Below are positions 40,273 to 59,799 of a DNA stretch of 64,000 bases, in pieces (position 1 is the first letter of the stretch; each line of letters starts with the position of its first letter). Location: contig NZ_CP010868.1 of NCBI RefSeq assembly GCF_000875775.1, positions 930,001 through 994,000 on the forward strand. The letters run 5' to 3'. Made by a program: the position numbers and the translations under genes. The stretch is from Nitrosopumilus piranensis (lineage in GTDB: Archaea; Thermoproteota; Nitrososphaeria; Nitrososphaerales; Nitrosopumilaceae). The notes below the pieces were generated by a model, which was not told where the DNA came from, did not search any database, and saw only the letters and a list, made by a program, of their open reading frames with translations.

Positions 40273-40458
40273 CTAGACCTTTTTTTTACTTCGTGGCTTT
40301 GTTCTAAGTACTGCTTTACAACAAATGCATCTAGGATCATCAATTGCCAAAAATATCCCACAAAATGTACATCTTTTTTGTCCTATCTCGTATCTAATTT
40401 TATTTGGTGCTGGTCCTGCCTTGTGCATCTCACAAATACCTCTACATGTTCTACCCAT
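40273..40458 (-). CDS. Small zinc-ribbon protein downstream of the aberrant TFB
   Basis: The 61-residue basic protein (MGRTCRGICEMHKAGPAP...) contains C-R-G-I-C, then RCTFCG and CICC, giving six to seven cysteines, enough for one or two zinc sites. ATG 40458 overlaps the TFB stop region and is preceded by GGAGGTG (rc) about 7 bases upstream, so translation is coupled. It probably works with the neighbouring TFB, though that is inference. Confidence 0.75.
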   Translation of the reverse strand: MGRTCRGICEMHKAGPAPNKIRYEIGQKRCTFCGIFLAIDDPRCICCKAVLRTKPRSKKKV

Positions 40459-41362
40459 TAATTTCACCTCCAACTTTTTTCAAAATTTCCTTTGTTCTGT
40501 CTCTAATTGTAACTGCACTAATTCCAGATACTTTGGAAATTTTTAATTGAGAAACCTTCTCGCCATTTTTAATTGATGCAAGGTATGTGGCTGCTGCTGC
40601 CATGGCCATTGGGTTTTTACTTGCCGAAACCCTATTTTTTGCTGAAACATCTAAAATTCTAAATGCAAGTCTTTCTGATTTTTCAGAAATACCTACCGCT
40701 TTTGCAATTCTTGTAACAAATTCTGTTGGGTGATAAATTTCAGGAGTTAAATCTAATTCCCTAGCAAGATATCTGTATGTTCTCTGAATGCTTTTTTTGC
40801 TCACATTACCTGCATTAGCAATATCTTGTAATGTTCTCGGCGTGTTTGTCATTCTACATGTAATGTATACTGCAGCACAGAGAATTCCTGCAGTTGATCT
40901 ACCTGCGAGGATTTTTTTTGCAGCAATTTTTCTAAATAAATAGGCGGTTTGCTCTATAACTGATTCTGGAAGTCCAAGTTTTGCACTTACTCCATCTAGC
41001 ATTGTGAATGCCTTTTGGAATGATTTAACAGAATTTGCTGATCTGCTATTTCTATCCCACATTCTTAGTCGGTAAAACATTCTACGATTTTCACTTGATA
41101 AACCCCTTCCAGTTGAATCCCTGTCCTTAGATTCAATAATGGTTGATAATCCCATATCTATCATTTTTAGAGAAATTTTTCTACCCACTCTGGTATTATT
41201 TTGATAATCTTCACTTGTCATGCCGACACTTTCAGGACCACTGTCTACTGATCTTTCAGATAATACAGCTCCGCAATTGATACATGCAATTTCTCCTGTG
41301 TGTAAGTCTGTAATGACTTTATTTTTTTTGCAAGTCTTTTGATGTACAAGTTTAGTCAACAT
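40451..41362 (-). CDS. Second TFB paralog with altered zinc ribbon
   Basis: The two cyclin folds are recognisable (AGRSTAGILCAAVYITCRMT; ISAVTIRDRTKEIL). The zinc ribbon differs from the canonical one: the first CxxC is replaced by H7-x3-C11 while the second pair C27-x2-C30 is intact. In archaea extra TFBs often control stress or condition-specific genes. It is flanked on both sides by tiny zinc-ribbon genes in the same operon, and its promoter carries the CACTAG box shared by the 41-59 kb regulon. It may therefore be both member and effector of that regulon. 303 residues. Confidence 0.9.
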   Translation of the reverse strand: MLTKLVHQKTCKKNKVITDLHTGEIACINCGAVLSERSVDSGPESVGMTSEDYQNNTRVGRKISLKMIDMGLSTIIESKDRDSTGRGLSSENRRMFYRLRMWDRNSRSANSVKSFQKAFTMLDGVSAKLGLPESVIEQTAYLFRKIAAKKILAGRSTAGILCAAVYITCRMTNTPRTLQDIANAGNVSKKSIQRTYRYLARELDLTPEIYHPTEFVTRIAKAVGISEKSERLAFRILDVSAKNRVSASKNPMAMAAAATYLASIKNGEKVSQLKISKVSGISAVTIRDRTKEILKKVGGEING

Positions 41363-41363
41363 T

Positions 41364-41516
41364 TTATTCTCTCCTTAAAAGTACTCCACATTCTTCACAT
41401 GAGATTCCGAATTCATGGAAATCAATATTTGAATTGCCACAATTAATACAAATTCTGATTTCGTTATTCTTAATTTTCAAATTATTACTTTGCTCATGAA
41501 TTATCTGTTTACTCAT
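41364..41516 (-). CDS. Small zinc-ribbon protein, first gene of the TFB2 operon
   Basis: A 50-residue frame from ATG 41516 has CINCG and CEECG separated by 16 residues (a CxxC...CxxC zinc ribbon). It ends 1 bp before the TFB2 start, so the genes are co-transcribed. The ATG is at the predicted transcription start (box 26 bp upstream), consistent with a leaderless message. The function is unknown. Confidence 0.7.
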   Translation of the reverse strand: MSKQIIHEQSNNLKIKNNEIRICINCGNSNIDFHEFGISCEECGVLLRRE

Positions 41517-41536: not shown

Positions 41537-41573
41537 TTATTTAAGAGGGCAAAAATAATTTCTCTAGTGCCAA
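41537..41573 (-). promoter_or_regulatory. CACTAG-box promoter of the TFB2 operon
   Basis: Read on the minus strand, TTGGCACTAG (41564-41573) is followed by 19 bp and then the TATA-like TTAAATAA (41537-41544). ATG 41516 is about 25 bp further. Confidence 0.7.
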
Positions 41574-41574
41574 C

Positions 41575-41805
41575 CTACTCTACATACATTTGACGTTTGT
41601 ATCCTAATAAAATTAAAGTAATTCCTAATATCACTACTCCTAATGAAATTTTTTCAGATGTGATTTCTGGTGATGTAAAAAAATGATGCACAAAGTCTGG
41701 ACCCCAAATTATCAAATTTTGAATTGGAATTATGGCTGCAGAAATTAAAAAGATAACTCCAAAAGCTGTTAAAACATTTGGTTTGTATGATTTAAATGAA
41801 AACAT
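41575..41805 (-). CDS. Small two-pass membrane protein
   Basis: The 76 residues have two membrane segments (about 12-33 and 51-67). It lies 8 bp downstream of the mini-gene at 41814-41945, which has the CACTAG-box promoter, so it probably belongs to that transcript. No family recognised. Confidence 0.55.
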   Translation of the reverse strand: MFSFKSYKPNVLTAFGVIFLISAAIIPIQNLIIWGPDFVHHFFTSPEITSEKISLGVVILGITLILLGYKRQMYVE

Positions 41806-41965: not shown

Positions 41966-42002
41966 CTATTTTAGTAGTCAAAAATTTCAATTCTAGTGCT
42001 AA
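41966..42002 (-). promoter_or_regulatory. CACTAG-box promoter of the 41945 gene
   Basis: On the minus strand TTAGCACTAG (41993-42002) is 19 bp upstream of TAAAATAG (41966-41973). ATG 41945 follows about 25 bp later. Confidence 0.65.
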
Positions 42003-42036
42003 TTTATGGGTACTTTTACCTACTAAAAATTTTCTT

Positions 42037-42073
42037 TTGGCACTATGAATATTTTTTCATTCTTATTATATAT
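42037..42073 (+). promoter_or_regulatory. CACTAG-box promoter of the 42095 operon
   Basis: TTGGCACTAT (42037-42046) is 19 bp upstream of TTATATAT (42066-42073), and ATG 42095 lies about 26 bp beyond the box centre. The last base of the motif is T instead of G. Confidence 0.65.
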
Positions 42074-42094
42074 TATAATTTTGCAAGGCTATGT

Positions 42095-42457
42095 ATGCCA
42101 CATATTGTATTTGATAAAAGAATTGATCTAAATGATTTCTCAAATAAATTTGATCCAATATTTCAAAAAGAACCTACATTAATTAAAATTTCAACTATTT
42201 TTGTTGATAAGAATGGATTAACTGCCTTGCTTCCCACAATTGTTATTTCTGATATTCATCAGGAATTTTTAATTGAAATTTCTACAAGAAAAGAAAAAAC
42301 TACAATAAGACTATACCCTGCTACTGATCCTGAAAAAACTGATGGTGTTAAAACTTCGATGGCATTACTTGCAAAGCAAATAATTTCTTACTATTCTGAT
42401 TTTAAAGTTACAAAAACTAATCTTTCTGATTATCTAAAACTGGTTGTGGTAAATTGA
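42095..42457 (+). CDS. Hypothetical protein, first gene of the SRPBCC/CrtI-like cluster
   Basis: This 120-residue soluble alpha/beta protein (MPHIVFDKRIDLNDFSNKFD) is not recognised. The frame is open further upstream, but ATG 42095 fits the leaderless promoter. The next gene overlaps it by 4 bp (TTGA), so the two are translationally coupled. Confidence 0.65.
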   Translation: MPHIVFDKRIDLNDFSNKFDPIFQKEPTLIKISTIFVDKNGLTALLPTIVISDIHQEFLIEISTRKEKTTIRLYPATDPEKTDGVKTSMALLAKQIISYYSDFKVTKTNLSDYLKLVVVN

Positions 42458-42906
42458 ATAATTTTACATTAAAGCGCCATTCTGTATTGTCTCAAGAACA
42501 AATTTTTGCAATTAGTACTGATGTGAAAAACTTTCATCTAATAATGCCTGATTATTTTAAATCTTTAGATATAATTAAACAAAACAATAATGAGAAAATT
42601 GTTTATGAGAAAATTTCATTTCTAGGAATTCCTATGAAAATTAAAACTAGACATGTTATTAAACATCCAAACATCCATGAAGTTCATATCTTCTCAGGCC
42701 CAACAAAAGGAACTAGATTTATAGAATCCTATGTTAAATCTGGTAATGGCACAATTGTTACTATTGATGTTCATTTGAACTTTAATGGGATTTTAAAATT
42801 ATTTTCGTTTCTCAAAAGTTTTGTTGCAAAAAAAATGAGTCAGACCATGGATGACTTTATCATATCTGCTGAAAAATTTCATTTATCTGGTACAATTCAA
42901 AGTTAG
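42454..42906 (+). CDS. SRPBCC-fold protein (polyketide cyclase/START-like)
   Basis: The 150 residues follow the helix-grip pattern: SQEQIFAISTDVKNFHLIMPDYF, then beta strands with GTRFIESYVKSGNGTIVTIDVHL, then a long C-terminal helix. Such proteins bind hydrophobic ligands in a deep pocket. It starts at TTG 42454, overlapping the previous stop, and is followed after 53 bp by the CrtI-like oxidoreductase. Ligand binding to isoprenoid-like molecules is possible by context only. Confidence 0.7.
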   Translation: MNNFTLKRHSVLSQEQIFAISTDVKNFHLIMPDYFKSLDIIKQNNNEKIVYEKISFLGIPMKIKTRHVIKHPNIHEVHIFSGPTKGTRFIESYVKSGNGTIVTIDVHLNFNGILKLFSFLKSFVAKKMSQTMDDFIISAEKFHLSGTIQS

Positions 42907-42938
42907 CACTATTTTGTAATTTTATCCCTAGATAAATA
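42903..42938 (+). promoter_or_regulatory. CACTAG-box promoter of the CrtI-like gene
   Basis: TTAGCACTAT (42903-42912) is 18 bp upstream of GATAAATA (42931-42938). ATG 42960 sits at the expected start site. The motif overlaps the end of the SRPBCC gene, so the CrtI-like gene has its own promoter inside the cluster. Confidence 0.65.
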
Positions 42939-42959
42939 CCAAAAGCCAATAATTTGATC

Positions 42960-44294
42960 ATGAAGAGCAGTGTTATTGTTATCGGTGCTGGTGTTGGAGG
43001 TTTGACAACCGGTGCTTTGCTTGCCAAAGAAGGTTATTCAGTACATATTCTTGAGAAATCATCAAAATTAGGTGGTAGAACTGCTTCTTTAGTATACAAA
43101 AATCACATCCTGGATAATGGTTTTCACATCATGCCTTTTTACAAAAAATCTGCAATTTTTAGCGTTTTGAAAAAAATTGGAATTGACTCTAGACTAAAAC
43201 TTGCCACTGTCAATAACATTGCTTTTCATTCTGATTCTGGCTTTCACAAATATCCTAAGGGTATGCTAGATTTACTCCAACTATCTTTAATTCCGCTAAA
43301 AAGTAGAATTCGTTTATTGAAGTTATTATTACCTATGGCATTTACTTCAATTGAAAAAACTGAAGAATGGGATGAAAAGTCTTTAACCGATATTACTGAA
43401 AAACTTGATTCTGATACCAAAGCATTTTTTGAGGCAGTCTGTATGTTAGCATTTGCTGATACTGCTGATCACATTTCGTTAGGTGAATTCGCAAGAACAA
43501 TAATTCGAGCGAATCCATTCAAAGGCGGAACTAGTGAATTTGCTTACCCCGATGAAGGTGGGTATGATTCTATTTCTCAAGTTTTAGGTGATTATATTTT
43601 GGAGCAAAACGGAATAATTGAAACAAATCAATCTGTCAAAAAAGTTGTCATTGAAAATTCCAAAGCCATTGGTGTAATTACAGGTAATGAAAAATTTTAT
43701 CCTGCTGATTGTGTTGTCATTTCGTATCCTGCCTATATGGCTTTAAATCAATTATTTGATGATGGTGTAATTGATAGGAAGTTTATTGAAAAAATTAATC
43801 GCCTAGATAAAAAAACTGCTGTCGTTGAAGTTCATTTTGCATTAAATTCAAAAATTGATAATAAGCAAGTTGTATTTCCTGTAGGTAACCACTATACAAC
43901 TAAAGGGATATTTTTTATTTCAAATATTACTCCAACTGTATCTCCCCACGGGGAACATTTGATTATTGCAGGAACTCCTGTAAATCCTTCTGTGGCAGAT
44001 AACTCTGAAAAAATTAGAGATATTGTAAGTACTATGAAAAAAGAAATCTCTTCAATTTATCCTAATTTTACCTCTTCATTATTATGGGAGCGACCAATGG
44101 CTTGGAAATTAGTCGAATCTGTTGTAAAAGAACCTGGAATGGTCTGGAAATCCAAAATGCCCCATCAAATACCTGACATAGAAGGGCTATTTTTTGTGGG
44201 TGACTCAACAATTAGTTATGGAATTGGGACTGATTCTGCAGCACACAGCTCAATTCTATGTTATCCAAAAATTGAATCATTTCTTAAGACTTAA
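42960..44294 (+). CDS. CrtI-like FAD-dependent oxidoreductase (phytoene desaturase family)
   Basis: The N-terminus is a dinucleotide-binding VIVIGAGVGGLTTGALLAKE followed by EKSSKLGGRTAS, and the C-terminus has GLFFVGDSTISYGIGTDSAAHSS, both typical of the CrtI/amine-oxidase flavoenzymes. At 444 residues it is a normal length. Relatives desaturate or isomerise carotenoid precursors, but no phytoene synthase lies nearby, so the substrate is open. ATG 42960 fits the leaderless promoter. It is convergent with the B12-sensor gene. Confidence 0.8.
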   Translation: MKSSVIVIGAGVGGLTTGALLAKEGYSVHILEKSSKLGGRTASLVYKNHILDNGFHIMPFYKKSAIFSVLKKIGIDSRLKLATVNNIAFHSDSGFHKYPKGMLDLLQLSLIPLKSRIRLLKLLLPMAFTSIEKTEEWDEKSLTDITEKLDSDTKAFFEAVCMLAFADTADHISLGEFARTIIRANPFKGGTSEFAYPDEGGYDSISQVLGDYILEQNGIIETNQSVKKVVIENSKAIGVITGNEKFYPADCVVISYPAYMALNQLFDDGVIDRKFIEKINRLDKKTAVVEVHFALNSKIDNKQVVFPVGNHYTTKGIFFISNITPTVSPHGEHLIIAGTPVNPSVADNSEKIRDIVSTMKKEISSIYPNFTSSLLWERPMAWKLVESVVKEPGMVWKSKMPHQIPDIEGLFFVGDSTISYGIGTDSAAHSSILCYPKIESFLKT

Positions 44295-44295
44295 A

Positions 44296-45138
44296 CTATA
44301 TTTTTCTTAGAATTTTTGGGACTTGTTCAAGGCCACAATCTGGAATTACTTCTCCTGCAAATTTAGGAATTTTTTCGCCTCTAAGTGCGTACCCTCCAAT
44401 CAAAACTGGTATGTTTATGTGATCCTTAATTTTTTTAACAAGTCTTTGACCTGCTGAAAGATTATCTTCAAGTGTAATTGATATCATAACTATGTCTGGT
44501 TTATTATTGTCAATAAAGTTAAGAATTGATTCAGTTGGCATTGATACTCCCATATTGTAAATTTTAAATCCCTTAATTGATAGATAGGTCTCTAGAACAT
44601 CACAACCAAGGTGATGCTCTTCCCCTTGTGGTATGCAAATGAGAATTTTTTTCTTATTGGCTGAACCCGTAATTTTATCCATGATAATTTTTACTAATGT
44701 CTGTGCAACATTGCTTGCTACGTGTTCTGTGGCTATACTGATTTTTCCAGTTGCCCACTCATCTCCAATTCTGTACATTGTAGGTTTTAAAATTTTATCA
44801 AAAAAATCTGGTGCATTAAAAATTTTAGTGTACTCATCATATGTTTTTACAGAGTCATGAATATTTCCCTCTGTTAATTTTTTGTATAATTGTTGTTTTG
44901 ATTTTTTTGTGGCGTCTTCTCTTTTTTTGACATCTTTTGGATTGTATGATGCTAATACTGATAATACCTTTGGATCATTTCTATAATCTACTGGAATGTC
45001 GTCTTTCACTACATCTGATGCCTTTCCAAGATACTTTACAATTTCTTGTTTTGAAGTACTTTTTTTAGAATCCCATACGCTTTTTACCAGATACAAATAT
45101 TGATCTGATTTTACTTTCTTGGCTCTGATGTAAACCAT
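44296..45138 (-). CDS. CarH-like cobalamin-binding sensor protein
   Basis: Residues about 90-160 are a helical cap domain with W128-x9-E138-H139 (EWATGKISIATEHV), the Wx9EH motif of the CarH/LitR photoreceptors. Residues about 163-280 are a B12-binding Rossmann domain with E173-x-H175-x-x-G178, whose His should be the lower cobalt ligand. CarH has a His just after the Trp that ligates cobalt in the light; here it is Ala129. There is no MerR DNA-binding domain. Instead residues 1-45 (MVYIRAKKVKSDQYLYLVKS and following) resemble transposase N-terminal domains. AdoCbl-based light sensing is plausible. Confidence 0.85.
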   Translation of the reverse strand: MVYIRAKKVKSDQYLYLVKSVWDSKKSTSKQEIVKYLGKASDVVKDDIPVDYRNDPKVLSVLASYNPKDVKKREDATKKSKQQLYKKLTEGNIHDSVKTYDEYTKIFNAPDFFDKILKPTMYRIGDEWATGKISIATEHVASNVAQTLVKIIMDKITGSANKKKILICIPQGEEHHLGCDVLETYLSIKGFKIYNMGVSMPTESILNFIDNNKPDIVMISITLEDNLSAGQRLVKKIKDHINIPVLIGGYALRGEKIPKFAGEVIPDCGLEQVPKILRKI

Positions 45139-45158: not shown

Positions 45159-45195
45159 ATATATAACTAATGGTAATTATAATTGCTAGTGGTAA
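45159..45195 (-). promoter_or_regulatory. CACTAG-box promoter of the B12-sensor gene
   Basis: On the minus strand TTACCACTAG (45186-45195) is 19 bp upstream of TTATATAT (45159-45166); ATG 45138 is leaderless-spaced. Confidence 0.7.
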
Positions 45196-45240: not shown

Positions 45241-45276
45241 TTACCACTAGTAGTGTAGTTAACACTAGTTTAAATA
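45241..45276 (+). promoter_or_regulatory. CACTAG-box promoter of the epimerase gene (two sites)
   Basis: TTACCACTAG (45241-45250) and a second TTAACACTAG (45259-45268) abut the TATA-like TTTAAATA (45269-45276). GTG 45298 is at the predicted start. The upstream site has the common 18-bp spacing; the near one touches the box. Confidence 0.7.
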
Positions 45277-45297: not shown

Positions 45298-46689
45298 GTG
45301 ACATCTAATAAAAACACAAAGATGACTTCTAAAGCGGCACTACAGGAATCACCATTTTCAATCTTAGTTACAGGCGCAACTGGATTCATAGGCTCCAGAT
45401 TGATTTCCGAACTATCTTCTTCTGGATACACTGTAAAGGGGTTGAGTAGAAAAAAAATTTCTGATACAAAAAATGTAAAGTATGTTCAAGCTGATGTTTT
45501 TGATCCTAAACAACTGCTACATGCACTAGATGGTGTTGAAATTGCGTATTATCTACTCCATTCTATGGAGGGTAGTAAAGATGAGTGGCAGGAATTTGCA
45601 TCTAGGGAAAAGATTCAAGCTGAAAATTTTCTTAAAGCTGCAACACAGGTTGGAGTCAAAAGAATAATCTATCTTGGAGGATTGGTTCATGAGGGCTCAG
45701 ATTTATCTCCACATATGAAAAGTAGAAAACAAGTTGGACAAATTCTTGCATCTGGTGATATTCCAGTTACTGAACTGAGGGCATCTATAATTATTGGTGC
45801 AAAGGGTGGCTCATATGCAATGCTTCGATACTTGGTTGAACGATTAAGAATCATGGTTTGCCCCTCTTGGGTAAAATCTCTAGCACAACCAATAGCTGTT
45901 GATGATGTAGTACATTATTTGGCTGAATGTATTACAAAATCTGAAACAGTAGGAAAAATATTTGAAATTGGCGGTCCTGACAAAATGACCTATGAGGAGT
46001 TAATGCGTGTATATGCTGCATACCTTAACAAAAATTTGTTTGTTATTCAAATCCCATTTTTGACTACTAGATTGTCTTCTTATTGGGTTGATCTAATAAC
46101 TCCAGTAAAAGCATCATTGGCTAGACCCTTGATTGATAGTCTGGTTCATGACACTGTGGTTACGGATGATTCAATAACAAAAATTATTCCACTTCGTTTG
46201 AAATCTGTTCGTGAGTCAATTGATATCGCAACAAAAGAGATGAAATCCTCCCCCCCTAAAATTGAATCCAAAACTGAAAAAACTAATTTTAAAATTAATC
46301 AAAAAATTATCCAAACCTCACTAATTGCACTTGGAATAATTGGCACCACCTACTATTGGTTAGATGACCGTGCAGATGTGTATGATCCACTATGGATACT
46401 TGCATCTGTTGTATGGTTTACTGTGATTGTTCTTTCAATTGTAACTATTAGAAACAAAACCAGGTTGGGATATATGATGGCTGGTGTGCTATCTTGGGTT
46501 ACCCTTGCCTTTTGGCTTTTTGATAACTATTATGTTGTCTTTGGGATCTCACTTATTGCATCTACGCCAAATGAATTAATTACTATTAGAAATTTTATTG
46601 GTATTGCAGTTGCATCCATCACTGTGATTGCATCTCATAATCTATTTCACAAAGTAATGATCTATCAAGCAAAAGGAAAGCCTATTTGA
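45298..46689 (+). CDS. NAD(P)-binding epimerase-like protein with C-terminal membrane domain
   Basis: Residues about 20-320 are an atypical SDR/NmrA-like Rossmann domain (VTGATGFIGSRLISELSSSG; SGGxxx-type VHEGSDLSPHMKSRKQV). After a Pro/Lys-rich linker the last ~115 residues form about four membrane segments. Fusion of an SDR-epimerase with a membrane bundle resembles proteins in bacterial light regulons, though those differ in detail. It starts at GTG 45298. Substrate unknown. Confidence 0.78.
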   Translation: MTSNKNTKMTSKAALQESPFSILVTGATGFIGSRLISELSSSGYTVKGLSRKKISDTKNVKYVQADVFDPKQLLHALDGVEIAYYLLHSMEGSKDEWQEFASREKIQAENFLKAATQVGVKRIIYLGGLVHEGSDLSPHMKSRKQVGQILASGDIPVTELRASIIIGAKGGSYAMLRYLVERLRIMVCPSWVKSLAQPIAVDDVVHYLAECITKSETVGKIFEIGGPDKMTYEELMRVYAAYLNKNLFVIQIPFLTTRLSSYWVDLITPVKASLARPLIDSLVHDTVVTDDSITKIIPLRLKSVRESIDIATKEMKSSPPKIESKTEKTNFKINQKIIQTSLIALGIIGTTYYWLDDRADVYDPLWILASVVWFTVIVLSIVTIRNKTRLGYMMAGVLSWVTLAFWLFDNYYVVFGISLIASTPNELITIRNFIGIAVASITVIASHNLFHKVMIYQAKGKPI

Positions 46690-46691
46690 TT

Positions 46692-47618
46692 TTATTCTAT
46701 TTTAGAAAAAGAATTTTCTGAAACTATCGTCTTTTGAAATTCATTTGGGTGTATAATTTTTGCAAGAATTTCAATTCCTTCAATTGTACGTATGCTAGGT
46801 TTGCTAAAAAAAGAATTTGCGTCAACTGCAAAAACTTTGTTGTTTTTTACGGCATCAATATTTAGCCATGCCTGATTTTTTGCCAGAATCGATTTGTATT
46901 CTAAAACTGTTCGCTTGACATCAAACCCACAAGGCATGAGAATTATTATGTCTGGATTACTTTCTTTAACCTCTTCAAAACTCATCCGTCTAGAGTGCTC
47001 TCCTGCTCTACTTATCAAATTTCTACCTCCTGCAATTTTGATCATTTCTGGAATCCAGTGACCTGCTGTAAAAAATGGATCAAGCCATTCTAATGCCAAA
47101 ACTTTTGATGATTTGTCTTTTACTCTATTTTTGATTTTTTGAATTCTTTTTTTCAAAGACTCTAAAATCTCTTGTGCTTTCACTTCTCTTCCTAAAACAA
47201 TTCCTATCTCTCTTACTGACTCAAATATTTCTTCTAAATTGTGAGGATCCATTGAATACACTGATGGTTTTTTCTCAAGAATTTTGATGGCTTTGTTCAC
47301 TTGATTGGTGTAAGCTGCACAAACAGAGCATGTTTCTTGTGTAATTATTATATCTGGGTTTGCATCAATTAGATTTTTTTCATTTAATTCAAAAATGTCT
47401 TTTTTATCATTGAGTAACTGGCAAGTTATAGTATTGATCTGGCTACTTGTTAATTTTTCAGAATCTATTACTGAATTGATTACTTTTGGCTTAAGAGACG
47501 CTTCAGTTGGAAATTTGCACTCATGTGTTACTCCGTAGAGATCTTCCTGAGCCCCTAACTCATAAATTAATTCTGTAGCACTTGGCAAAAACGACACAAT
47601 TCTTTTTTCCATCTGCAA
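46692..47618 (-). CDS. BtuF-like cobalamin/corrinoid-binding protein without signal peptide
   Basis: The 308 residues match periplasmic-binding-protein class PF01497 (RIVSFLPSATELIYELGAQE; WLDPFFTAGHWIPEMIKIAG). Members bind vitamin B12 or siderophores for ABC transport. No signal peptide or lipobox is seen, and no permease or ATPase is adjacent, so it may be a cytoplasmic binding or sensing protein. It lies near the B12 sensor at 44296. Confidence 0.8.
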   Translation of the reverse strand: MQMEKRIVSFLPSATELIYELGAQEDLYGVTHECKFPTEASLKPKVINSVIDSEKLTSSQINTITCQLLNDKKDIFELNEKNLIDANPDIIITQETCSVCAAYTNQVNKAIKILEKKPSVYSMDPHNLEEIFESVREIGIVLGREVKAQEILESLKKRIQKIKNRVKDKSSKVLALEWLDPFFTAGHWIPEMIKIAGGRNLISRAGEHSRRMSFEEVKESNPDIIILMPCGFDVKRTVLEYKSILAKNQAWLNIDAVKNNKVFAVDANSFFSKPSIRTIEGIEILAKIIHPNEFQKTIVSENSFSKIE

Positions 47619-48996: not shown

Positions 48997-49524
48997 CTAT
49001 TTCTGTGATAACATTTGAAAGAAATTTCCTAGTTGATTATCTGCATACAAGAGAAAATATGTTTGATTTGCAAGATATGTAGTGTTGAATCTATAGGTGA
49101 TTGGATTAATCTCAGATAATATTTTTCCAACCGTGATCTTACCTTCTCTAAATTGATTTAATAATTTGAAAAATAATTCCTTTTCAGAGACATTGAATTT
49201 TTTTGAAAAATACCCAAAAATATGCATTATAGCATTTGCATGCGATTTGGTTGTTGGTGGTTTTTCTAACGCTTTTCTAAGGTGCTTTTCATATTCTGAC
49301 ATAATCTCTGATAATGAAACTTTTTTGTAACTTGCAACAATGTTCCCTAAAATTTTTAATTCATTTTGATCATGAACCATAAGCATGTATTTGTTCATGG
49401 CTTGAAATGTTACCAGATTACTGATCTTTCCTTTTTTCACATCATCGAATCTTTTTAAGACATATTCTTTGATATCCTCTTCAGACAGTATTGACATGTC
49501 AGTTTTCTCTTGATTTTTGTTCAC
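48997..49524 (-). CDS. Helical hypothetical protein, member of the CACTAG group
   Basis: The 175 residues are all-helical (DUF1722-like in style: SHANAIMHIFGYFSKKFNVS and a preceding EYEKHLRKALEKPP). DUF1722 domains occur next to photolyase/LitR genes in bacteria, so this match is worth testing; I am only moderately sure. It starts at GTG 49524, spaced for a leaderless message from the TATA box at 49548. It overlaps nothing and is divergent from the WW-module gene. Confidence 0.65.
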   Translation of the reverse strand: MNKNQEKTDMSILSEEDIKEYVLKRFDDVKKGKISNLVTFQAMNKYMLMVHDQNELKILGNIVASYKKVSLSEIMSEYEKHLRKALEKPPTTKSHANAIMHIFGYFSKKFNVSEKELFFKLLNQFREGKITVGKILSEINPITYRFNTTYLANQTYFLLYADNQLGNFFQMLSQK

Positions 49525-49547: not shown

Positions 49548-49638
49548 ATATAAACCAGAATTGCTTGAATTCAAATTACCACTAGATTTTGCCTTGTATT
49601 TTTGGCACTAGAAGAACATTTAGCACCAGCTTATATAT
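49548..49638. promoter_or_regulatory. Shared divergent CACTAG promoter region
   Basis: TTACCACTAG (49576-49585), TTGGCACTAG (49602-49611) and the variant TTAGCACCAG (49620-49629) lie in tandem. The second is 19 bp upstream of TTATATAT (49631-49638) for the plus-strand gene. The first is 20 bp from the minus-strand box (rc of ATATAAAC, 49548-49555), in reverse orientation. Confidence 0.7.
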
Positions 49639-49659
49639 CATAACTGAAAATAGATGTTA

Positions 49660-50556
49660 ATGAAAATAGCATTAACTGCAATGACTGCAATAATACTAGT
49701 AGCATTAACATCATCAGCATATGCCGACGTTCCATCTTGGGTCAAAACCAATGCAGGTTGGTGGGCCGATGGCACCCTATCAGAATCTGAATTTGTTTCA
49801 GGCATAGAGTTTTTGATTAATGCTGGAATCATCACAGTTGCGCCAACAACCGTCTCCACTCAAAGCTCAGAAGGAGTTCCCGACTGGGTAAAAAACACCG
49901 CAGGTTGGTGGGCAGAGGGAATAATCACTGATGGTGAATTTGTAAATGGAATCCAACACCTTATTTCCATAGGATTAATTTCTGTGGATTCAAGCCAAAC
50001 TCAGGAAGATATCTCGTCTGTAGAAAAAACATCCGACACAGAGTTGTCAATGTTTGAAAAGGAACTTGAAAAATGTTCTGAGATTACAAAGGCATACAAA
50101 AGATTAGACTGTGAAAAACCTATCAAGAAAGCAATTCAGCTTTACGAATACAAAAAGACTGCACAAAAGTTTGAAGTAGGTCCGATAATTTACTATTGGC
50201 AAGGAATGGGTACTGAAGGAAGTGAATTTGAAATTACTCCTACAGGACAGGCAATTCTAACTATACGTATGCTAGCTGAAAATACTAGTTCTGATATTGT
50301 TGCGTTGAATTGTACTAGTCCCCAGATATGTAACTATGATGTTTGGGATGGCTCAACTGCATTCAAGTATTCTGGTATGGACTTTACCAGCGGTCAAATC
50401 AACATTAATCCTGGAGACACTAGAGAATTCAATATGTTATTTGGTCCTAACATAGGATATGGTGGAACTCAGTTTCTATATGATCCATCATTGACATATC
50501 ACTTTAGAATAAGTGAGAACTTTGGAAGTACAAATGTCCTATTAGAATTGGAATAG
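49660..50556 (+). CDS. Secreted protein with two WW-type modules
   Basis: A signal peptide (MKIALTAMTAIILVALTSSA) is cleaved after YA-D. Two modules, VPSWVKTNAGWWADGTLSES and VPDWVKNTAGWWAEGIITDG, follow, and the C-terminal ~180 residues form a beta-rich domain with Cys pairs (CTSPQIC). ATG 49660 fits the leaderless promoter (TATA centre about 26 bp upstream); ATG 49654 is a less likely start. A surface role is likely. Confidence 0.78.
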   Translation: MKIALTAMTAIILVALTSSAYADVPSWVKTNAGWWADGTLSESEFVSGIEFLINAGIITVAPTTVSTQSSEGVPDWVKNTAGWWAEGIITDGEFVNGIQHLISIGLISVDSSQTQEDISSVEKTSDTELSMFEKELEKCSEITKAYKRLDCEKPIKKAIQLYEYKKTAQKFEVGPIIYYWQGMGTEGSEFEITPTGQAILTIRMLAENTSSDIVALNCTSPQICNYDVWDGSTAFKYSGMDFTSGQININPGDTREFNMLFGPNIGYGGTQFLYDPSLTYHFRISENFGSTNVLLELE

Positions 50557-53266: not shown

Positions 53267-53629
53267 TTAAAAAACATTGGTGATTTTTTTCAATTTTTTT
53301 AAATCTTTTATTTCAATATCATTACTGAGTGTCACTATTTTAGCTAATTTTGGGTTAGCTTCTTTTCCAAGTTTAAGTACTGTATCTCCTTTTAATTTTA
53401 TTTCCAAAGTAATGCCTTCATGTTTGAGTTTTTTTGCAAGATCCTTTGCTTCTGATAATTGTTTTATTATTCCTGGCTTTCTTGAAATTTTTATTGGAAT
53501 ATCTACAATATCAATAATTTTGGAACTATTGTTGCATGAAAAACTAACTGCAGGTTTATTGTCCCATTTTACACTAAGACTTCCATTTGTTAGTGATGAT
53601 AAAAAATTCGAAGGGAGATTATTTTTCAT
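53267..53629 (-). CDS. Hypothetical basic protein
   Basis: This 120-residue soluble protein is Lys-rich and not recognised. It shares a transcript with the gene 10 bp upstream (53640-53825), which has the CACTAG box. Both may act on a common ligand or complex; unknown. Confidence 0.6.
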   Translation of the reverse strand: MKNNLPSNFLSSLTNGSLSVKWDNKPAVSFSCNNSSKIIDIVDIPIKISRKPGIIKQLSEAKDLAKKLKHEGITLEIKLKGDTVLKLGKEANPKLAKIVTLSNDIEIKDLKKLKKITNVF

Positions 53630-53846: not shown

Positions 53847-53882
53847 TATTTAATTAACAAAAAAAATTTTTTCTAGTGCTAA
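53847..53882 (-). promoter_or_regulatory. CACTAG-box promoter of the 53825 gene
   Basis: On the minus strand TTAGCACTAG (53873-53882) is 18 bp upstream of TTAAATAG (53847-53854). ATG 53825 follows at leaderless spacing. Confidence 0.65.
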
Positions 53883-53884
53883 TT

Positions 53885-55282
53885 TTAGACTGTACACATC
53901 TTGAAAATCTCTTTTGATTTTTGTGATTCCGATTTGTGCTCCAAAATTGGTTTTGGATATGAAGAATTTTTTGGAAAACTCTTCCAAAGTAAATGAATAT
54001 TTTTAGCTGGCAGTTCTTTTAATTCAGGAATCCATTTTTTGATATATGTGCAATTGGGGTCAAATTTTTTTTGTTGTATCCATGGATTAAATATTCTGAA
54101 CCAAGGCTGAGCATCACATCCAGTTGATGCTGCCCATTGCCAATTTCCTATATTGACACATGGATCATAGTCGATGAGTTTTGTAGCAAAATATTTTTCT
54201 CCCAATCTCCAATCAATATGCATGTCTTTTGTGAGAAATGATGCTACAATCATTCTAACTCTGTTATGCATAAATCCAGTTTGATTAAGCTCTCTCATTC
54301 CTGCGTCTACTATGGGAAATCCTGTTTGTCCTTTACACCATTTTAAAAAATATTTTTTATCTTTGTGCCACTTGATTTTTTGAAAGTTCTTGTTAAATTC
54401 TTTTGAAAATGTGTATTGAAAATGGTGCATTAAATATGTGAAAAAATCTCTCCAATACAGTTCTCTAATAATTGTATGATTTGGACCAAGTGTGTTAATA
54501 CACACCTCATAAATTTCTCTTATGGAGCAAGTACCAAATTTGTTGTGTGCTGAAAGTAGTGATGTTCCATTTATTGCTGGAAAATTTCTTTTTTCGTCAT
54601 AATCTACTAAATTTTTAATATTTTCTAGTCTCTCAAGGCACGATTCTCTTCCTCCTTTCTGTTGCAGTGAATTTCTTTTAATTTTTAATTCAGAAATATT
54701 TTCAATGGTTGTTTCAGATTTAATTTTGGCATCTGAAAGATTTGAAAAATTATATTTCTGCGGTTGCCTAATTGGTAATTCTTTTGCCTTTGAAAAAAAT
54801 GCAGTAAAAATTTTGTATGGTTCCCCTTTACCTGTTTTGATTGTATCTACGTCATGCAGTAGTATATCATCTGCAATTACAAAATCTATTTTATTTTCTT
54901 CACAAATTCTTTTAATTTCTTTATCTCGCTTTTTACTAAATGGTGTATAGTCTCTGTTTACAAAAATTGCATCTATTTTACAATCTGTTATTAAATCCAA
55001 AATTATTTTTTTTGGATGTCCTGAAAAAATATGTAAATGTGATTTTGAATCTAAAAGTTGCTCATTGAGTTCACATATACAATCTTTAAGAAATTGCATT
55101 CTAAATTCACTGAACTTTCTATTTGATTTTTTGATTAATAATGGGTCTATGATGAACGCTGGAATTACTTCTAATGATGTCTTTGAGGCTGCAATTAAGC
55201 CAGAATTATCTATTTTTCGTAGATCTCGTCTGAATATGAACAGTGTTCTTTTGTATTTTGTTTTTTCACTAAATTCTGACAA
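53885..55282 (-). CDS. phr: Class I deoxyribodipyrimidine photolyase
   Basis: Photolyase uses light to split UV-induced pyrimidine dimers. The 465 residues contain the N-terminal antenna-binding domain (TLFIFRRDLRKIDNSGLIAA) and the FAD domain with NIGNWQWAASTGCDAQPWFR near residue 390. The start is TTG 55282, because the frame is closed upstream by a TGA. A short overlapping frame (ATG 55310, 13 codons) lies at the predicted transcript start. Its promoter has the CACTAG box. Confidence 0.93.
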   Translation of the reverse strand: MSEFSEKTKYKRTLFIFRRDLRKIDNSGLIAASKTSLEVIPAFIIDPLLIKKSNRKFSEFRMQFLKDCICELNEQLLDSKSHLHIFSGHPKKIILDLITDCKIDAIFVNRDYTPFSKKRDKEIKRICEENKIDFVIADDILLHDVDTIKTGKGEPYKIFTAFFSKAKELPIRQPQKYNFSNLSDAKIKSETTIENISELKIKRNSLQQKGGRESCLERLENIKNLVDYDEKRNFPAINGTSLLSAHNKFGTCSIREIYEVCINTLGPNHTIIRELYWRDFFTYLMHHFQYTFSKEFNKNFQKIKWHKDKKYFLKWCKGQTGFPIVDAGMRELNQTGFMHNRVRMIVASFLTKDMHIDWRLGEKYFATKLIDYDPCVNIGNWQWAASTGCDAQPWFRIFNPWIQQKKFDPNCTYIKKWIPELKELPAKNIHLLWKSFPKNSSYPKPILEHKSESQKSKEIFKMCTV

Positions 55283-55333: not shown

Positions 55334-55367
55334 TATAAAATTAAAACAAATTTTTTTCTAGTGGTAA
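55334..55367 (-). promoter_or_regulatory. CACTAG-box promoter of the photolyase gene
   Basis: On the minus strand TTACCACTAG (55358-55367) is 16 bp upstream of TTTTATAC-like box (rc of TATAAAAT, 55334-55341). The predicted transcript start is near 55311, about 29 bp before the TTG start. Confidence 0.6.
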
Positions 55368-55368
55368 A

Positions 55369-55776
55369 TTATTTTTGTGATTTTATAAAATCAACTATGG
55401 ATAGAATTTTTCCCATATCTGCTAAATGCCCATAACTTTTTTTCCCGCTAATTAATGATTTTTTCAATGGTTTGTTACTTAACGTACAGAAAAGCATTTT
55501 GCCACTACCAAGTGGAACTGTAATTCTTTTAATTTTTTGATATGATGAAATTGAATATAGCCCATTTCCGATGAAATCTTTTACTCGAGCATTCTCATCC
55601 CATGCATGCAATGCTCTCAATAATGTTTGCTTTGTTTCTTCAAATGGAACAAGATTTTTCAAACCTTCTCTTTGACTCCACCATAAAATTTCTCCTTTGT
55701 CATTTGAGACTGCAGCGAATCTAATATCATCATTGAAATCCATTAGCATATTGAGGAGTTTTTCTAATTTATCCAC
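55369..55776 (-). CDS. Roadblock-like protein (sensor-like paralog A)
   Basis: The 135 residues (MLMDFNDDIRFAAVSNDKGE) are a paralog of the next gene (55863-56267), sharing the IR-[FL]-A-[AV]-[IV]-SN and KMLF/HMLF strands and the conserved GKILSIVDF end. Distant relatives at 27444 and 32841 suggest a roadblock/profilin fold. It starts at GTG 55776. Its promoter has the CACTAG box. Confidence 0.65.
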   Translation of the reverse strand: MDKLEKLLNMLMDFNDDIRFAAVSNDKGEILWWSQREGLKNLVPFEETKQTLLRALHAWDENARVKDFIGNGLYSISSYQKIKRITVPLGSGKMLFCTLSNKPLKKSLISGKKSYGHLADMGKILSIVDFIKSQK

Positions 55777-55797: not shown

Positions 55798-55832
55798 TTA
55801 ATAAATATTCCAAAAAGATGAACTAGTGGTAA
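55798..55832 (-). promoter_or_regulatory. CACTAG-box promoter of roadblock gene A
   Basis: On the minus strand TTACCACTAG (55823-55832) is about 14 bp from an AATATTTATTAA box (55798-55809), slightly closer than in the other promoters. Confidence 0.55.
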
Positions 55833-55862: not shown

Positions 55863-56267
55863 TTACTCAAACGTGTTTACGAAATCAACTATTGATAAGA
55901 TCTTCCCCATCTCTACCAATTTCCCATAACTGTGTTTTTTAGTATTTTTCATAGGGGTGTTGTCTATACTCATAAACAACATGTGAAATGCATCAATAGG
56001 TAAAGTAACTCTCTTTGTTTTCTCAAATGATGTTATATGATACAATGGTTGCCCTAGGGGATTACGATCTGCTGTCTTACATCTGTCAATCCAATCATCT
56101 GATTCGCGTTTTAGAGCCCTTTTGGTTTCAGCTAAGGGGACTTGCAATTTTTCTGAAGTTCTTTTAGAACTCCATAAAATATCTCCTGATGTATTACTGA
56201 TAACTGCAAGTCTTATGTTTTCATCAAAATCCATTAACATATTCAAAACTTTTTCATATCGTCCCAT
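55863..56267 (-). CDS. Roadblock-like protein (sensor-like paralog B)
   Basis: The 134 residues are closely related to the gene at 55369 (LNMLMDFDENIRLAVISNTS; GKILSIVDFVN). The central insertion around CKTADRNPLGQPLYH may form a binding loop. ATG 56267 is leaderless-spaced, with a TTGGCACTTG site upstream. Function unknown. Confidence 0.65.
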   Translation of the reverse strand: MGRYEKVLNMLMDFDENIRLAVISNTSGDILWSSKRTSEKLQVPLAETKRALKRESDDWIDRCKTADRNPLGQPLYHITSFEKTKRVTLPIDAFHMLFMSIDNTPMKNTKKHSYGKLVEMGKILSIVDFVNTFE

Positions 56268-56943: not shown

Positions 56944-57717
56944 TTAGGCCCACGCAACAATTTTTTGATCCTTATGGTACACTCCTAAAAACATACCTAA
57001 AGTGATTCTTGACGTATTACCTTGGATTTTTGTTACTTCGTGAAAATGATTTGGATTAATTATTACTAAATCTCCTTTATTCACACTTTTTAGTTTGCAG
57101 TAATTAGAGGATACAACTTTTGGTGAGTATCCAAAATCTATCTCTCTAAATTTTTCATCGCTTCTTTTCCATTGGTTCTCATAAATTATTACTTTGCCTC
57201 CAACTTCTGATTCCTGCAGATGTATGACACATGATAATTGGGAATCAATATTTGAAATACAAAATTCTTTTCCCTCGTATTTGATATTGTCTTTGTGAAT
57301 GGGTATGGCTTTCCCTTTTTTGTGAATTCTAATTATGTATGGCGAAAAACTTTCTTGTGATTGTTTTGCAAGAGAAATTGAAAATGTTGGAAATGCTTTT
57401 TTGAACATGGCGAAAACCTTGGAAGATGGATTTTCAACTTTAGTAAAAATTTGTTCAAATTGTTTTTGGGTTTTTTTAGCTTTTTCAAAATATTCATTTT
57501 TTTGTGTTATGTGGGACATTAAAAATGGGCCAATGTGCTCAAGTTTAGTTTTCTGAAAATGTGTTTTTTTAGCTTTTTCTATTTTTTTTATAATAAATTT
57601 ACATTGCTCTTTAGAATAAAAATTTCTAATTATTATAGCTGGGATTTTTTTGTTCAAAAGCAATTCTAAATCTAAATGATTTATGCTTTGGTTTTCTATT
57701 ACTAGTGGATTCCACAC
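56944..57717 (-). CDS. 2-oxoglutarate/Fe(II)-dependent oxygenase-like protein
   Basis: The 257 residues contain an H-x-D (PIHKDN, near 142) and a distal H (NPNHFHEV) followed by an Arg (SRITLG), the facial triad and 2-oxoglutarate-binding residue of this fold. The substrate is unknown; hydroxylation of a protein or small molecule is likely. Its start meets the end of the 57717-58004 gene, so it is third in that operon. Confidence 0.78.
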   Translation of the reverse strand: MWNPLVIENQSINHLDLELLLNKKIPAIIIRNFYSKEQCKFIIKKIEKAKKTHFQKTKLEHIGPFLMSHITQKNEYFEKAKKTQKQFEQIFTKVENPSSKVFAMFKKAFPTFSISLAKQSQESFSPYIIRIHKKGKAIPIHKDNIKYEGKEFCISNIDSQLSCVIHLQESEVGGKVIIYENQWKRSDEKFREIDFGYSPKVVSSNYCKLKSVNKGDLVIINPNHFHEVTKIQGNTSRITLGMFLGVYHKDQKIVAWA

Positions 57718-58004
57718 TAATATCCACCCACGCCTGAATGTGATACTTTGGATAAAAGAAACCCTGATTCATCCTTGCCCTCAATCTCACATTTTAGAAA
57801 TGCATCATTCGTACACTGTTTCAAAATTTCTTCATTCCACTCTGATTCACTATGTGGAAGTCCAGGAATGTCTGCCTGAATAATTTTAATTTTTTCAACA
57901 TCTAAGTAATTCTCTTTGTTTCCATTTTTTCTATGTGTCACATTAAGGATAAATGATGTAGGTGATAAAATATCCGATCCGTTTCCCCAAATAATGTCAG
58001 TCAT
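57717..58004 (-). CDS. Small hypothetical protein between DICT-like and oxygenase genes
   Basis: The 95 residues are soluble and not recognised (TSFILNVTHRKNGNKENYLD; QADIPGLPHSESEWNEEILK). Its 5' end overlaps the DICT-like gene by 8 bp and its 3' end meets the oxygenase gene, so all three are translationally linked. Confidence 0.6.
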   Translation of the reverse strand: MTDIIWGNGSDILSPTSFILNVTHRKNGNKENYLDVEKIKIIQADIPGLPHSESEWNEEILKQCTNDAFLKCEIEGKDESGFLLSKVSHSGVGGY

Positions 58005-58572
58005 TTTCTACAACTTTATGATCAAAATCAATTTTAGTTTTTAGGGATTTTTCTGTTATCTCAATTGCCTTGTTTATAATTGTGGGACTAATTGAGAAGA
58101 ATCCTCTGAACATGCCGTCTCCAATATCTTCTGCCACTAATCCAAACGGACCCTTATCTCCTTTTGTTAGTACCATCCAGATTTCTGTTAAGTTAGTTCC
58201 ATCACAGCTTATTACTTCTGCATTTTTTGGTGGCTGTGGGGCTAATGATGGATTATTAAAATTTCCAATAATCCATACCTTGGGTATATCTTTGACCAAT
58301 TCCATGTATCTGTCTTCAACATACTTGTATCTCTTAGATGTCTCAAATGTAGCTAGTAGTGGAACTTTGTATTTTGCTGCATAATTTTCAATAAGAATAC
58401 TAAGTCGATAAAGTTCTTTTCTACCTGCCTCAAATCTCACATATCCTGAATTGATGTAGTCCCTAAGATACCACAATACATTATGATCTGTAATGTCTGT
58501 AATTTTTACATCTAAAAGTTTTGGAAATTCACTAAAAAGTTCATCAATCATGCTTTTGTATTCCAACTTCAT
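57997..58572 (-). CDS. DICT-like sensory domain protein (paralog 2)
   Basis: The 191 residues are a paralog of 56375-56920, with RKELYRLSILIENYA, PLLATFETSKRYKYVE, PKVWIIGN and GPFGLVAEDIGDGMFRGFF conserved. It starts at ATG 58572 with leaderless spacing from a TATA box at 58593-58600, beneath two CACTAG-type sites. It heads a three-gene operon with an unknown protein and a 2OG oxygenase. Confidence 0.72.
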   Translation of the reverse strand: MKLEYKSMIDELFSEFPKLLDVKITDITDHNVLWYLRDYINSGYVRFEAGRKELYRLSILIENYAAKYKVPLLATFETSKRYKYVEDRYMELVKDIPKVWIIGNFNNPSLAPQPPKNAEVISCDGTNLTEIWMVLTKGDKGPFGLVAEDIGDGMFRGFFSISPTIINKAIEITEKSLKTKIDFDHKVVEND

Positions 58573-58592: not shown

Positions 58593-58641
58593 ATATATAA
58601 CTAGTGACCACCAATTTTACTAGTGCTAACATTACCACTAG
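58593..58641. promoter_or_regulatory. Shared divergent CACTAG promoter cluster
   Basis: Minus-strand sites TTAGCACTAG (58620-58629) and TGGTCACTAG (58601-58610) serve the 58572 gene, with the former 19 bp from TTATATAT (58593-58600). The plus-strand site TTACCACTAG (58632-58641) is 19 bp from TTAAATAC (58661-58668) and serves the 58690 gene. Confidence 0.72.
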
Positions 58642-58799: not shown

Positions 58800-59234
58800 T
58801 TGCAAAAATCTAATCCCTCAAAAATTGATTACATGCTTTCAGATACAAAAATCCCAATTAGACTTGCTTTCATCAAGCCTGATGGATTCCCAAACATACT
58901 TTCTTTATGGTATGAAGAAATTAATGGAAAAATTTTCTGCGCAACTCAAAAATCTGCCAAAATTGTTTCATATATTCAAAAAAACCCGTCCTGTGGATTT
59001 GAAATTGCTGCCGATAATCCTCCTTACAAGGGAGTACGTGGAAGTGGCACTGCTAGAATTTTAGAAAATAAAGGACAAGAAATTCTAAATATTTTAATGA
59101 AAAAGTATTTGGGAGAAAAGGAATCTACCTTGTCAAAATTTCTCAAAGAGCATTCTTCAAATGAAGTAGGAATTGAGATCACTCCTAGTAAAATTTTCAA
59201 TTATGACTACTCAAAACGAATGAGGGATGTATAA
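58800..59234 (+). CDS. FMN-binding split-barrel (pyridoxamine-phosphate-oxidase-like) protein
   Basis: The 144 residues have the split-barrel pattern of PNPOx-like proteins (PIRLAFIKPDGFPNILSLWY; KIFCATQKSAKIVSYIQKNP; GVRGSGTARIL). These bind FMN or F420 and often act as flavin reductases or sensors. The start is TTG 58800, in the operon with the Cys-rich gene. An F420-linked role is possible but not shown. Confidence 0.78.
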   Translation: MQKSNPSKIDYMLSDTKIPIRLAFIKPDGFPNILSLWYEEINGKIFCATQKSAKIVSYIQKNPSCGFEIAADNPPYKGVRGSGTARILENKGQEILNILMKKYLGEKESTLSKFLKEHSSNEVGIEITPSKIFNYDYSKRMRDV

Positions 59235-59418: not shown

Positions 59419-59456
59419 TTGGCACTAGATTATAAAATTGTCCCTTGCTTATATTC
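59419..59456 (+). promoter_or_regulatory. CACTAG-box promoter of the 59485 gene
   Basis: TTGGCACTAG (59419-59428) is 20 bp upstream of TTATATTC (59449-59456). ATG 59485 follows with a GAGGAG ribosome site at about 59477, so this message has a short leader. Confidence 0.65.
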
Positions 59457-59484: not shown

Positions 59485-59799
59485 ATGCAAGAAACAACAT
59501 ACAAAAAAACACCACGGCTAAAATTCATGTTGATTTTGGCTGCAGCAACTTCAGTAATCCTAGTTTTTACACTAACTCCTTGGAATGTAGTTCCAACTCT
59601 AGTTACTGAGGATGTAGCCGTTATCGCCGTTACTGACTATGGCTGTGTTGGAGAATCTGTTTTGGGGCATTCTGTTGTTGTAGCAGATTGTGATGCAGGT
59701 GTTGGAGATATAATTTCTGCAACATTTTATGTTCCTGCAATGGAACAAAACGGGTACTATGATAGAATCGAGGATAAACTAGCAATGGTTAATCCTTAA
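59485..59799 (+). CDS. Single-pass membrane protein with conserved Cys pair (paralog)
   Basis: The 104 residues have one membrane segment (about 14-33) and an outer C...C-x-A-G-x-G-D domain. The same layout as 13325-13603 (C-V-[EG]-[TE]-S ... C-[ND] ... GD) makes them paralogs. The expected disulfide is outside the cell. Unlike its paralog it has the CACTAG promoter. Start ATG 59485 with GAGGAG upstream. Confidence 0.65.
   Translation: MQETTYKKTPRLKFMLILAAATSVILVFTLTPWNVVPTLVTEDVAVIAVTDYGCVGESVLGHSVVVADCDAGVGDIISATFYVPAMEQNGYYDRIEDKLAMVNP

Follow-up and report, generated by a model that had tools for sequence, protein, structure and literature searches.

The gene at positions 44296–45138 of the window, i.e., the 64,000-nucleotide stretch of Nitrosopumilus piranensis DNA that was analysed here (the host genome is one contig of 1,713,078 bases), encodes a 280-residue protein in which a cobalamin-type module follows a short N-terminal domain of a different kind. 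The protein was named B12R in this analysis, and its gene stands in a cluster with the following genes and features. An earlier note had proposed that it is an adenosylcobalamin (AdoCbl) light sensor related to bacterial CarH, with an N-terminus other than the MerR DNA-binding domain; tests at the level of sequence support this proposal, while cobalamin binding and the response to light are inferred.

44296..45138, minus strand: B12R, putative B12 light-sensor regulator, 280 aa (ORF, Pfam, NCBIfam, profile of relatives)
45016..45138, minus strand: N-terminal domain of B12R, residues 1-41, putative DNA-binding domain (structure models, profile comparison)
44665..44907, minus strand: four-helix cap (B12-binding_2), residues 78-158, with GxxW 125-128 and EH 138-139 (Pfam, structure model)
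44299..44655, minus strand: Rossmann B12-binding domain, residues 162-280, with GEEHHLG, H175 being the predicted lower ligand (Pfam, model)
40451..41362, minus strand: cluster TFB (archaeal TFIIB) (Pfam, neighbourhoods)
41996..42457, plus strand: ORF w153, without a Pfam family, the true start probably lying within it, near 42092 (ORF, neighbourhoods)
42454..42906, plus strand: SRPBCC (polyketide-cyclase-like) protein, upstream of the FAD oxidoreductase (Pfam, neighbourhoods)
42954..44294, plus strand: FAD amine-oxidase/phytoene-desaturase-like oxidoreductase (Pfam, NCBIfam, co-occurrence)
45298..46689, plus strand: SDR/NAD(P)H-binding protein (Pfam; related to the SDR beside Thermus LitR)
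48997..49524, minus strand: DUF1722 protein (domain of RudS) (Pfam, co-occurrence)
49654..50556, plus strand: ORF w300 (neighbourhoods, operator upstream)
53885..55282, minus strand: DNA photolyase (co-occurrence)

The cobalamin module of B12R

The residues named in the earlier note, W128, A129, E138, H139 and H175, were all found at these positions in the translation of the minus strand, within or beside the motifs GxxWx9EH (125–139), GEEH (172–175) and GVSMP (197–201). The complete cobalamin signature E/DxHx2G-x41-SxT-x22-27-GG, as published (PMC8156234), starts at residue 173, and all four of the marks of light-responsive cobalamin domains used by SignatureFinder (GxxW, EH, GxxH, GxxxP; PMC11796333) are present. 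Pfam assigned the B12-binding_2 (1e-9) and B12-binding (4e-12) domains. The best NCBIfam family was CarH (5.7e-17), which scored better than MetH (1.3e-13), and the curated CarH cut-off was not reached (61.9 bits vs. 400). One relative, in genome G046, is 86% identical to B12R.

The same pair of domains is common to MetH and MtaC/MtbC-type proteins, and B12R could in principle be the corrinoid protein of a methyl-transfer system carrying an unrelated N-terminal tag, a reading to which we give almost no credence. GxxWx9EH is retained in 94 of 99 distinct full-length B12R relatives and is absent from the MetH sequences compared, the methionine synthases of N. piranensis and Planococcus lacking both the W and the EH. 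No methyltransferase partner gene was found among the conserved neighbours of B12R, and its matches to the NCBIfam methyltransferase corrinoid protein and MetH families all stayed under the curated cut-offs. A search of the PDB with a profile of 36 B12R relatives ranked photocobilins first (1e-19), followed by CtMerR (8jbs), a methyltransferase corrinoid protein, CarH and MetH. The earlier proposal would have fallen had the closest relatives been methyltransferase corrinoid proteins; because these rank below photocobilins, the MetH sequences compared lack the W and EH, and no methyltransferase partner was found among the neighbours, that is not the case. A small tree of B12 domains left the forks between B12R, CarH and MetH open and weakly supported.

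Of the Foldseek matches to the B12R model (pTM 0.46), the best 41 were chains of photocobilins, CarH or CtMerR, and MetH came in at rank 42, but the two B12 subdomains of the model, taken together, did not superpose on CarH (TM about 0.36, rmsd about 14).

Inspection of the sequence also confirmed that the place of the upper ligand of the light state, His132 in Thermus CarH, is occupied by Ala129. The residue following the W is A, S, E, D, K, V or Q in the 94 relatives, and never His. An upper His is absent as well from the light-responsive proteins CtMerR (Arg), SasPcob (Gln) and AbDPcob (Tyr), in which the light state is aquo/hydroxo (PMC11796333). Because these proteins respond to light without it, Ala129, judged by analogy, does not exclude photosensing by B12R; on the same analogy it predicts photocobilin-like rather than bis-His Thermus chemistry, the photochemistry itself being inferred. 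The H132A variant of Thermus CarH mostly does not fall apart in the light (PMC10442372), so the release step in B12R would have to resemble that of photocobilins.

The N-terminal domain

Residues 1–41 of B12R were modelled as a three-stranded beta meander (pLDDT 91) and are strongly basic (pI about 9.9). The beta meander and the lack of any MerR match to the N-terminus confirm the claim that this domain is not MerR. It had no match in Pfam, NCBIfam or the PDB, and a fold search with the domain alone returned nothing significant (best E 1.1). Its suggested resemblance to transposase N-termini was upheld by profile comparison with seven IS1634 transposase N-termini (97% probability, E 7e-11), which scored 55.8, none of 200 column-shuffled controls exceeding 13.8. 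The relationship was visible to profile comparison only, as a single-sequence comparison with one bacterial IS1634 N-terminus showed no match. When the domain was sought in 84,980 species genomes, the 80 best matches came from ammonia-oxidising archaea only, and among them it was always fused to a B12 module where the ORF was complete. It occurs once in the N. piranensis genome, and none was found in plasmids or viral contigs.

This homology suggests that the N-terminal domain is a putative DNA-binding domain recruited from a transposase. DNA binding is inferred here, since it rests on likeness to a transposase region of untested function and no significant structural match is available. The output of B12R is probably still DNA binding, because the domain is basic and stands in the place of MerR, and because B12R has evolved in step with a tandem operator found at a set of genes that includes the photolyase; there are no binding data. 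Elsewhere in the same genome, at about 1687117 (L099:1066-1959), lies a gene for a second protein resembling a regulator, of 297 residues, with an N-terminal HTH and a degenerate B12-binding_2-like domain, without a W..EH cap.

Gene cluster and co-occurrence

In 40 neighbourhoods from other genomes, B12R was found with genes for the SDR, FAD oxidoreductase, SRPBCC protein, DUF1722, photolyase, TFB and small proteins, in varying order. Co-occurrence was examined in 121 genomes of the family, 54 with B12R and 67 without it. The SDR was present in 45 of the 54 B12R genomes vs. 2 of the 67 others (p 1e-21), the FAD oxidoreductase in 34 vs. 0 (p 2e-16), DUF1722 in 33 vs. 3 (p 5e-12) and the photolyase in 23 vs. 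2 (p 8e-8); these p values ignore relatedness. The partner genes lie mostly within 5 kb of B12R, in reshuffled orders. The photolyase was rejected as a strict partner, as 31 of the 54 B12R genomes are without it.

Gains and losses within genera follow the same pattern. Three of three B12R-less genomes in the genus of N. piranensis lack all four of these partners, and in genus g9 the sole B12R genome is the sole SDR genome. In the congener G030, the backbone is collinear and exactly the cluster genes are absent between its junctions (GTPase-107 bp-BtuF-like, Nre-108 bp-DUF432, MscS-405 bp-CysS). Genomes G041 and G027 contain operator-bearing cluster genes, and no B12R was found in them. G101 is another apparent exception; its contig stops inside the SDR gene, adjoining the expected place of B12R.

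The Pseudomonas LitR region contains phrB, an SDR and an FAD oxidoreductase (PMC9758184), RudS/DUF1722 occurs together with PhrB and LitR in bacterial light operons (PMC11417400), and the surroundings of Thermus brockianus LitR include phr, crtI and an SDR. By comparison with these regions, the B12R cluster matches the gene kinds of bacterial LitR/CarH light regulons.

The gene at 46692–47618, which encodes a B12-type (BtuF-like) binding protein, lies close to B12R, and the residues described above would also serve a switch between apo and holo forms. B12R might then sense cobalamin status (the AdoCbl level) instead of light, and tune B12-related or oxidative-stress genes. We find this improbable, as no B12 synthesis genes occur among the identified co-retained genes, and the photolyase, RudS-type DUF1722 and oxidoreductases retained with B12R make up a light-response set. 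The neighbouring gene itself is part of the conserved backbone: it is kept in B12R-less G030 and has the operator in 0 of 7 loci, and it was rejected as a member of the system.

A tandem operator at the cluster promoters

Aligned upstream regions of B12R contain TTAGCACTAG-N9-TTAGCAYTAG directly before a TATA-like TTATATA, an arrangement that is mirrored for the divergent SDR gene. Copies of this element in the window are as follows.

41564..41573, minus strand: operator copy upstream of TFB, TTGGCACTAG
41993..42002, minus strand: operator-like copy between ORF 41575-41805 and w153
42037..42046, plus strand: operator-like copy upstream of w153, TTGGCACTAT
42903..42912, plus strand: operator-like copy upstream of the FAD oxidoreductase, TTAGCACTAT
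45167..45176, minus strand: operator copy 2 of the B12R promoter, TTACCATTAG, 19 bp from copy 1, abuts TTATATA (45160-45166)
45186..45195, minus strand: operator copy 1 of the B12R promoter, TTACCACTAG
45241..45250, plus strand: operator copy 1 of the divergent SDR promoter, TTACCACTAG
45259..45268, plus strand: operator copy 2 of the SDR promoter, TTAACACTAG, abuts TATA-like TTTAAATA
49576..49629, plus strand: three operator copies (49576, 49602, 49620) between DUF1722 and ORF 49654
53873..53882, minus strand: operator-like copy close to where the photolyase gene ends, ahead of ORF 53267-53629
55358..55367, minus strand: operator copy upstream of the photolyase, TTACCACTAG
55823..55832, minus strand: operator copy 47 bp upstream of ORF 55369-55776
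58620..58641: two divergent operator copies, ahead of ORF 57997-58572 (minus) and ORF 58800-59234 (plus)
59419..59428, plus strand: operator copy upstream of ORF 59485-59799, TTGGCACTAG

The window contains 13 sites of the form TTASCAYTAG vs. 0.46 expected, and 9 of the 16 TTASCACTAG sites in the genome fall in the 17 kb around B12R, within 1% of the genome's length (p 8e-15). A matrix trained on B12R promoters only found the operator in 157 of 268 upstream regions of cluster genes vs. 4 of 101 backbone controls (p 1e-24). It precedes DUF1722 in 21 of 21 loci, w300 in 31 of 37, and the FAD oxidoreductase and TFB in 14 of 17 each, with lower counts for the SDR (14 of 27) and the photolyase (4 of 13). 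Even deeply diverged genera, with protein identities down to about 40%, keep the tandem operator in front of B12R, and it is missing at 4 of 4 B12R paralogs without the Wx9EH cap. What is new here is that B12R anchors a cluster, mobile in its gene order, with a shared direct-repeat operator. In bacterial CarH, too, head-to-tail assembly leads to the binding of direct repeats in tandem, overlapping its promoter (PMC8156234, PMC9304148).

That the motif is a general promoter element of Thaumarchaeota was considered and rejected on the basis of the few control promoters that carry it and of G030, where 3 sites vs. 6 in the reversed control represent background. One outlier operator site is found 64 bp ahead of a gene for a DUF1722 paralog, located at 471581–472036 of the genome. 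An isolated operator with a TATA near 647320 (L186), TTACCACTAG-N9-TTAGCATCGGTTAAATA, precedes a nitroreductase-like gene, a possible distant member of the regulon. Second B12R-like copies at L059, L060, L061 and L062, without Wx9EH and without the operator, have a ACTCACCTAGGTGAG-like palindrome upstream instead, and at L059 and L061 a short helical-cap-like companion gene lies 3' of the copy.

Other genes in or near the cluster were observed as well. A homologue of the WelO5-type halogenase/2OG-Fe(II) oxygenases (56944–57717, minus strand; Pfam WelO5, E 1.8e-31) lies in an apparent operon behind the operator at 58620. Two small paralogous proteins encoded in tandem (55369–55776 and 55863–56267, minus strand) have no Pfam family, and both move with the cluster elsewhere. 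Between the operator at 41564 and TFB, a 50-residue ORF with two CxxC pairs was seen by eye (41364–41516, minus strand); it ends just before the TFB start.

The operator could be read by a protein other than B12R. The proximal copy lies exactly at the expected place of a BRE, in fixed orientation beside the TATA, and the motif precedes TFB itself in the 14 of 17 loci given above; the cluster TFB might then be a regulon-specific initiation factor that reads the operator as a special BRE, with B12R acting on TFB by contact or competition and not by binding DNA. Such a TFB would parallel, in archaea, the sigma factors of light regulons. TFB is lost together with the cluster in G030. G041 has TFB, the SDR and the motif without a detected B12R, and the operator-bearing genes of both G041 and G027 leave room for recognition of the motif by the cluster TFB or by some other factor. 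Against this, B12R operators occur without a close TFB homologue within about 10 kb (e.g., L048, L049, L052, L064–L066 and Nitrosopelagicus), although a TFB elsewhere is not excluded in these cases, and the two copies 19 bp apart resemble the site of a dimer. The motif is also missing at the four paralogs with degenerate B12 domains. Recognition by TFB is an unlikely explanation, if the least unlikely of those weighed against binding by B12R.

A proposed model for light-controlled transcription

The domain identities, signature residues, gene cluster, co-occurrence and operator with its layout come directly from the sequence, and they are best accommodated by a model that we hold to be likely, in which an oligomer of AdoCbl-bound B12R on the tandem operator blocks TBP/TFB in the dark, and cleavage of the Co-C bond by light frees the promoters. 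The cap and Rossmann module would hold AdoCbl in the dark with H175 below the cobalt and with W128, E138 and H139 placed around the adenosyl group. AdoCbl-B12R would form a head-to-tail oligomer, setting two transposase-derived N-terminal domains in tandem on TTAGCACTAG-N9-TTAGCAYTAG. This operator abuts the TATA of the promoters of B12R, the SDR, the photolyase, DUF1722, the FAD oxidoreductase, TFB and further genes of the cluster, and B12R bound to it would most likely block TBP/TFB. On exposure to green or blue light, the Co-C bond would break and aquo/hydroxo cobalamin would remain, the light state predicted because no upper His is available. The oligomer would then loosen and release the promoters, and photoprotection and repair would be induced.

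Cobalamin binding, photochemistry, binding of the operator by B12R rather than by the cluster TFB, the oligomer state, and repression as opposed to activation are inferred for B12R. It is most likely a light-released transcription factor that acts as a dark repressor, with the direction of control inferred; the fixed position and orientation of the operator by the TATA would equally suit an activator or a TFB-specific element. B12R probably does in archaea what the B12 light switch does in bacteria, with different parts. We favour, with less assurance than the model itself, the broader view that fusion of a light-responsive B12 domain to a DNA-binding domain from an IS1634-type transposase gave rise to such a switch independently of MerR CarH, with an operator code and a TFB of its own and a light regulon based on TATA and TFB in ammonia-oxidising archaea.

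Much of marine nitrification is the work of ammonia-oxidising archaea, which are regarded as light-sensitive. No report of a light sensor in these archaea, or of a CarH-type sensor in Thaumarchaeota, was found in the literature searched, which left subscription journals and preprints outside its scope. The present analysis provides a concrete light-sensor candidate with a list of target genes and an operator, present in cultured strains. The patchy distribution of the set, which is gained and lost as a whole, offers a genetic explanation for light niches among ammonia-oxidising archaea. If the model is true, B12R is a B12 photoreceptor of archaea whose DNA-binding domain is not of the MerR type, the logic of CarH can be rebuilt from a transposase-derived domain, and a new part becomes available for green-light gene switches.

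Comparison with known systems

The N-terminal region of about 50 residues of IS1634 transposases is homologous to that of B12R. Unlike these transposases, B12R has no DDE domain (Pfam finds B12 domains only) and is single-copy and conserved across genera; no IS1634 match was found in the N. piranensis genome. The light operons of RudS (TudS-DUF1722) share a DUF1722 gene with the B12R cluster, where it has the operator upstream in every locus (21/21) and, unlike RudS, stands alone without the TudS desulfidase domain. Photocobilins (SasPcob, AbDPcob) are the nearest solved structures by family profile and have the same signatures, no upper His and an aquo/hydroxo light state. Unlike them, B12R lacks the globin-like biliverdin domain, the protein ending after the Rossmann domain, and its output domain is N-terminal and of another fold.

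A parallel in the proposed mode of action is provided by CarH and class I LitR (e.g., of Thermus, Bacillus megaterium and Myxococcus), which share with B12R the cap and Rossmann domain with W..EH and ExHxxG, a gene neighbourhood with photolyase, SDR and desaturase-like FAD genes, and a tandem direct-repeat operator overlapping the promoter (its binding by B12R has not been shown). Paralogs with degenerate or unneeded B12 sites are common to both groups. B12R is not a member of the CarH family, since the MerR feature is absent and the CarH cut-off was missed. A transposase-type beta domain stands in place of the MerR winged-helix domain, the equivalent of Thermus His132 is lacking, and, unlike in CarH/LitR, no crtB or crtE neighbours were seen near B12R. 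The operator period is 19 bp rather than the 11 bp of CarH, and archaeal TATA/BRE promoters and a TFB take the part that a sigma factor has in the CarH/LitR systems.
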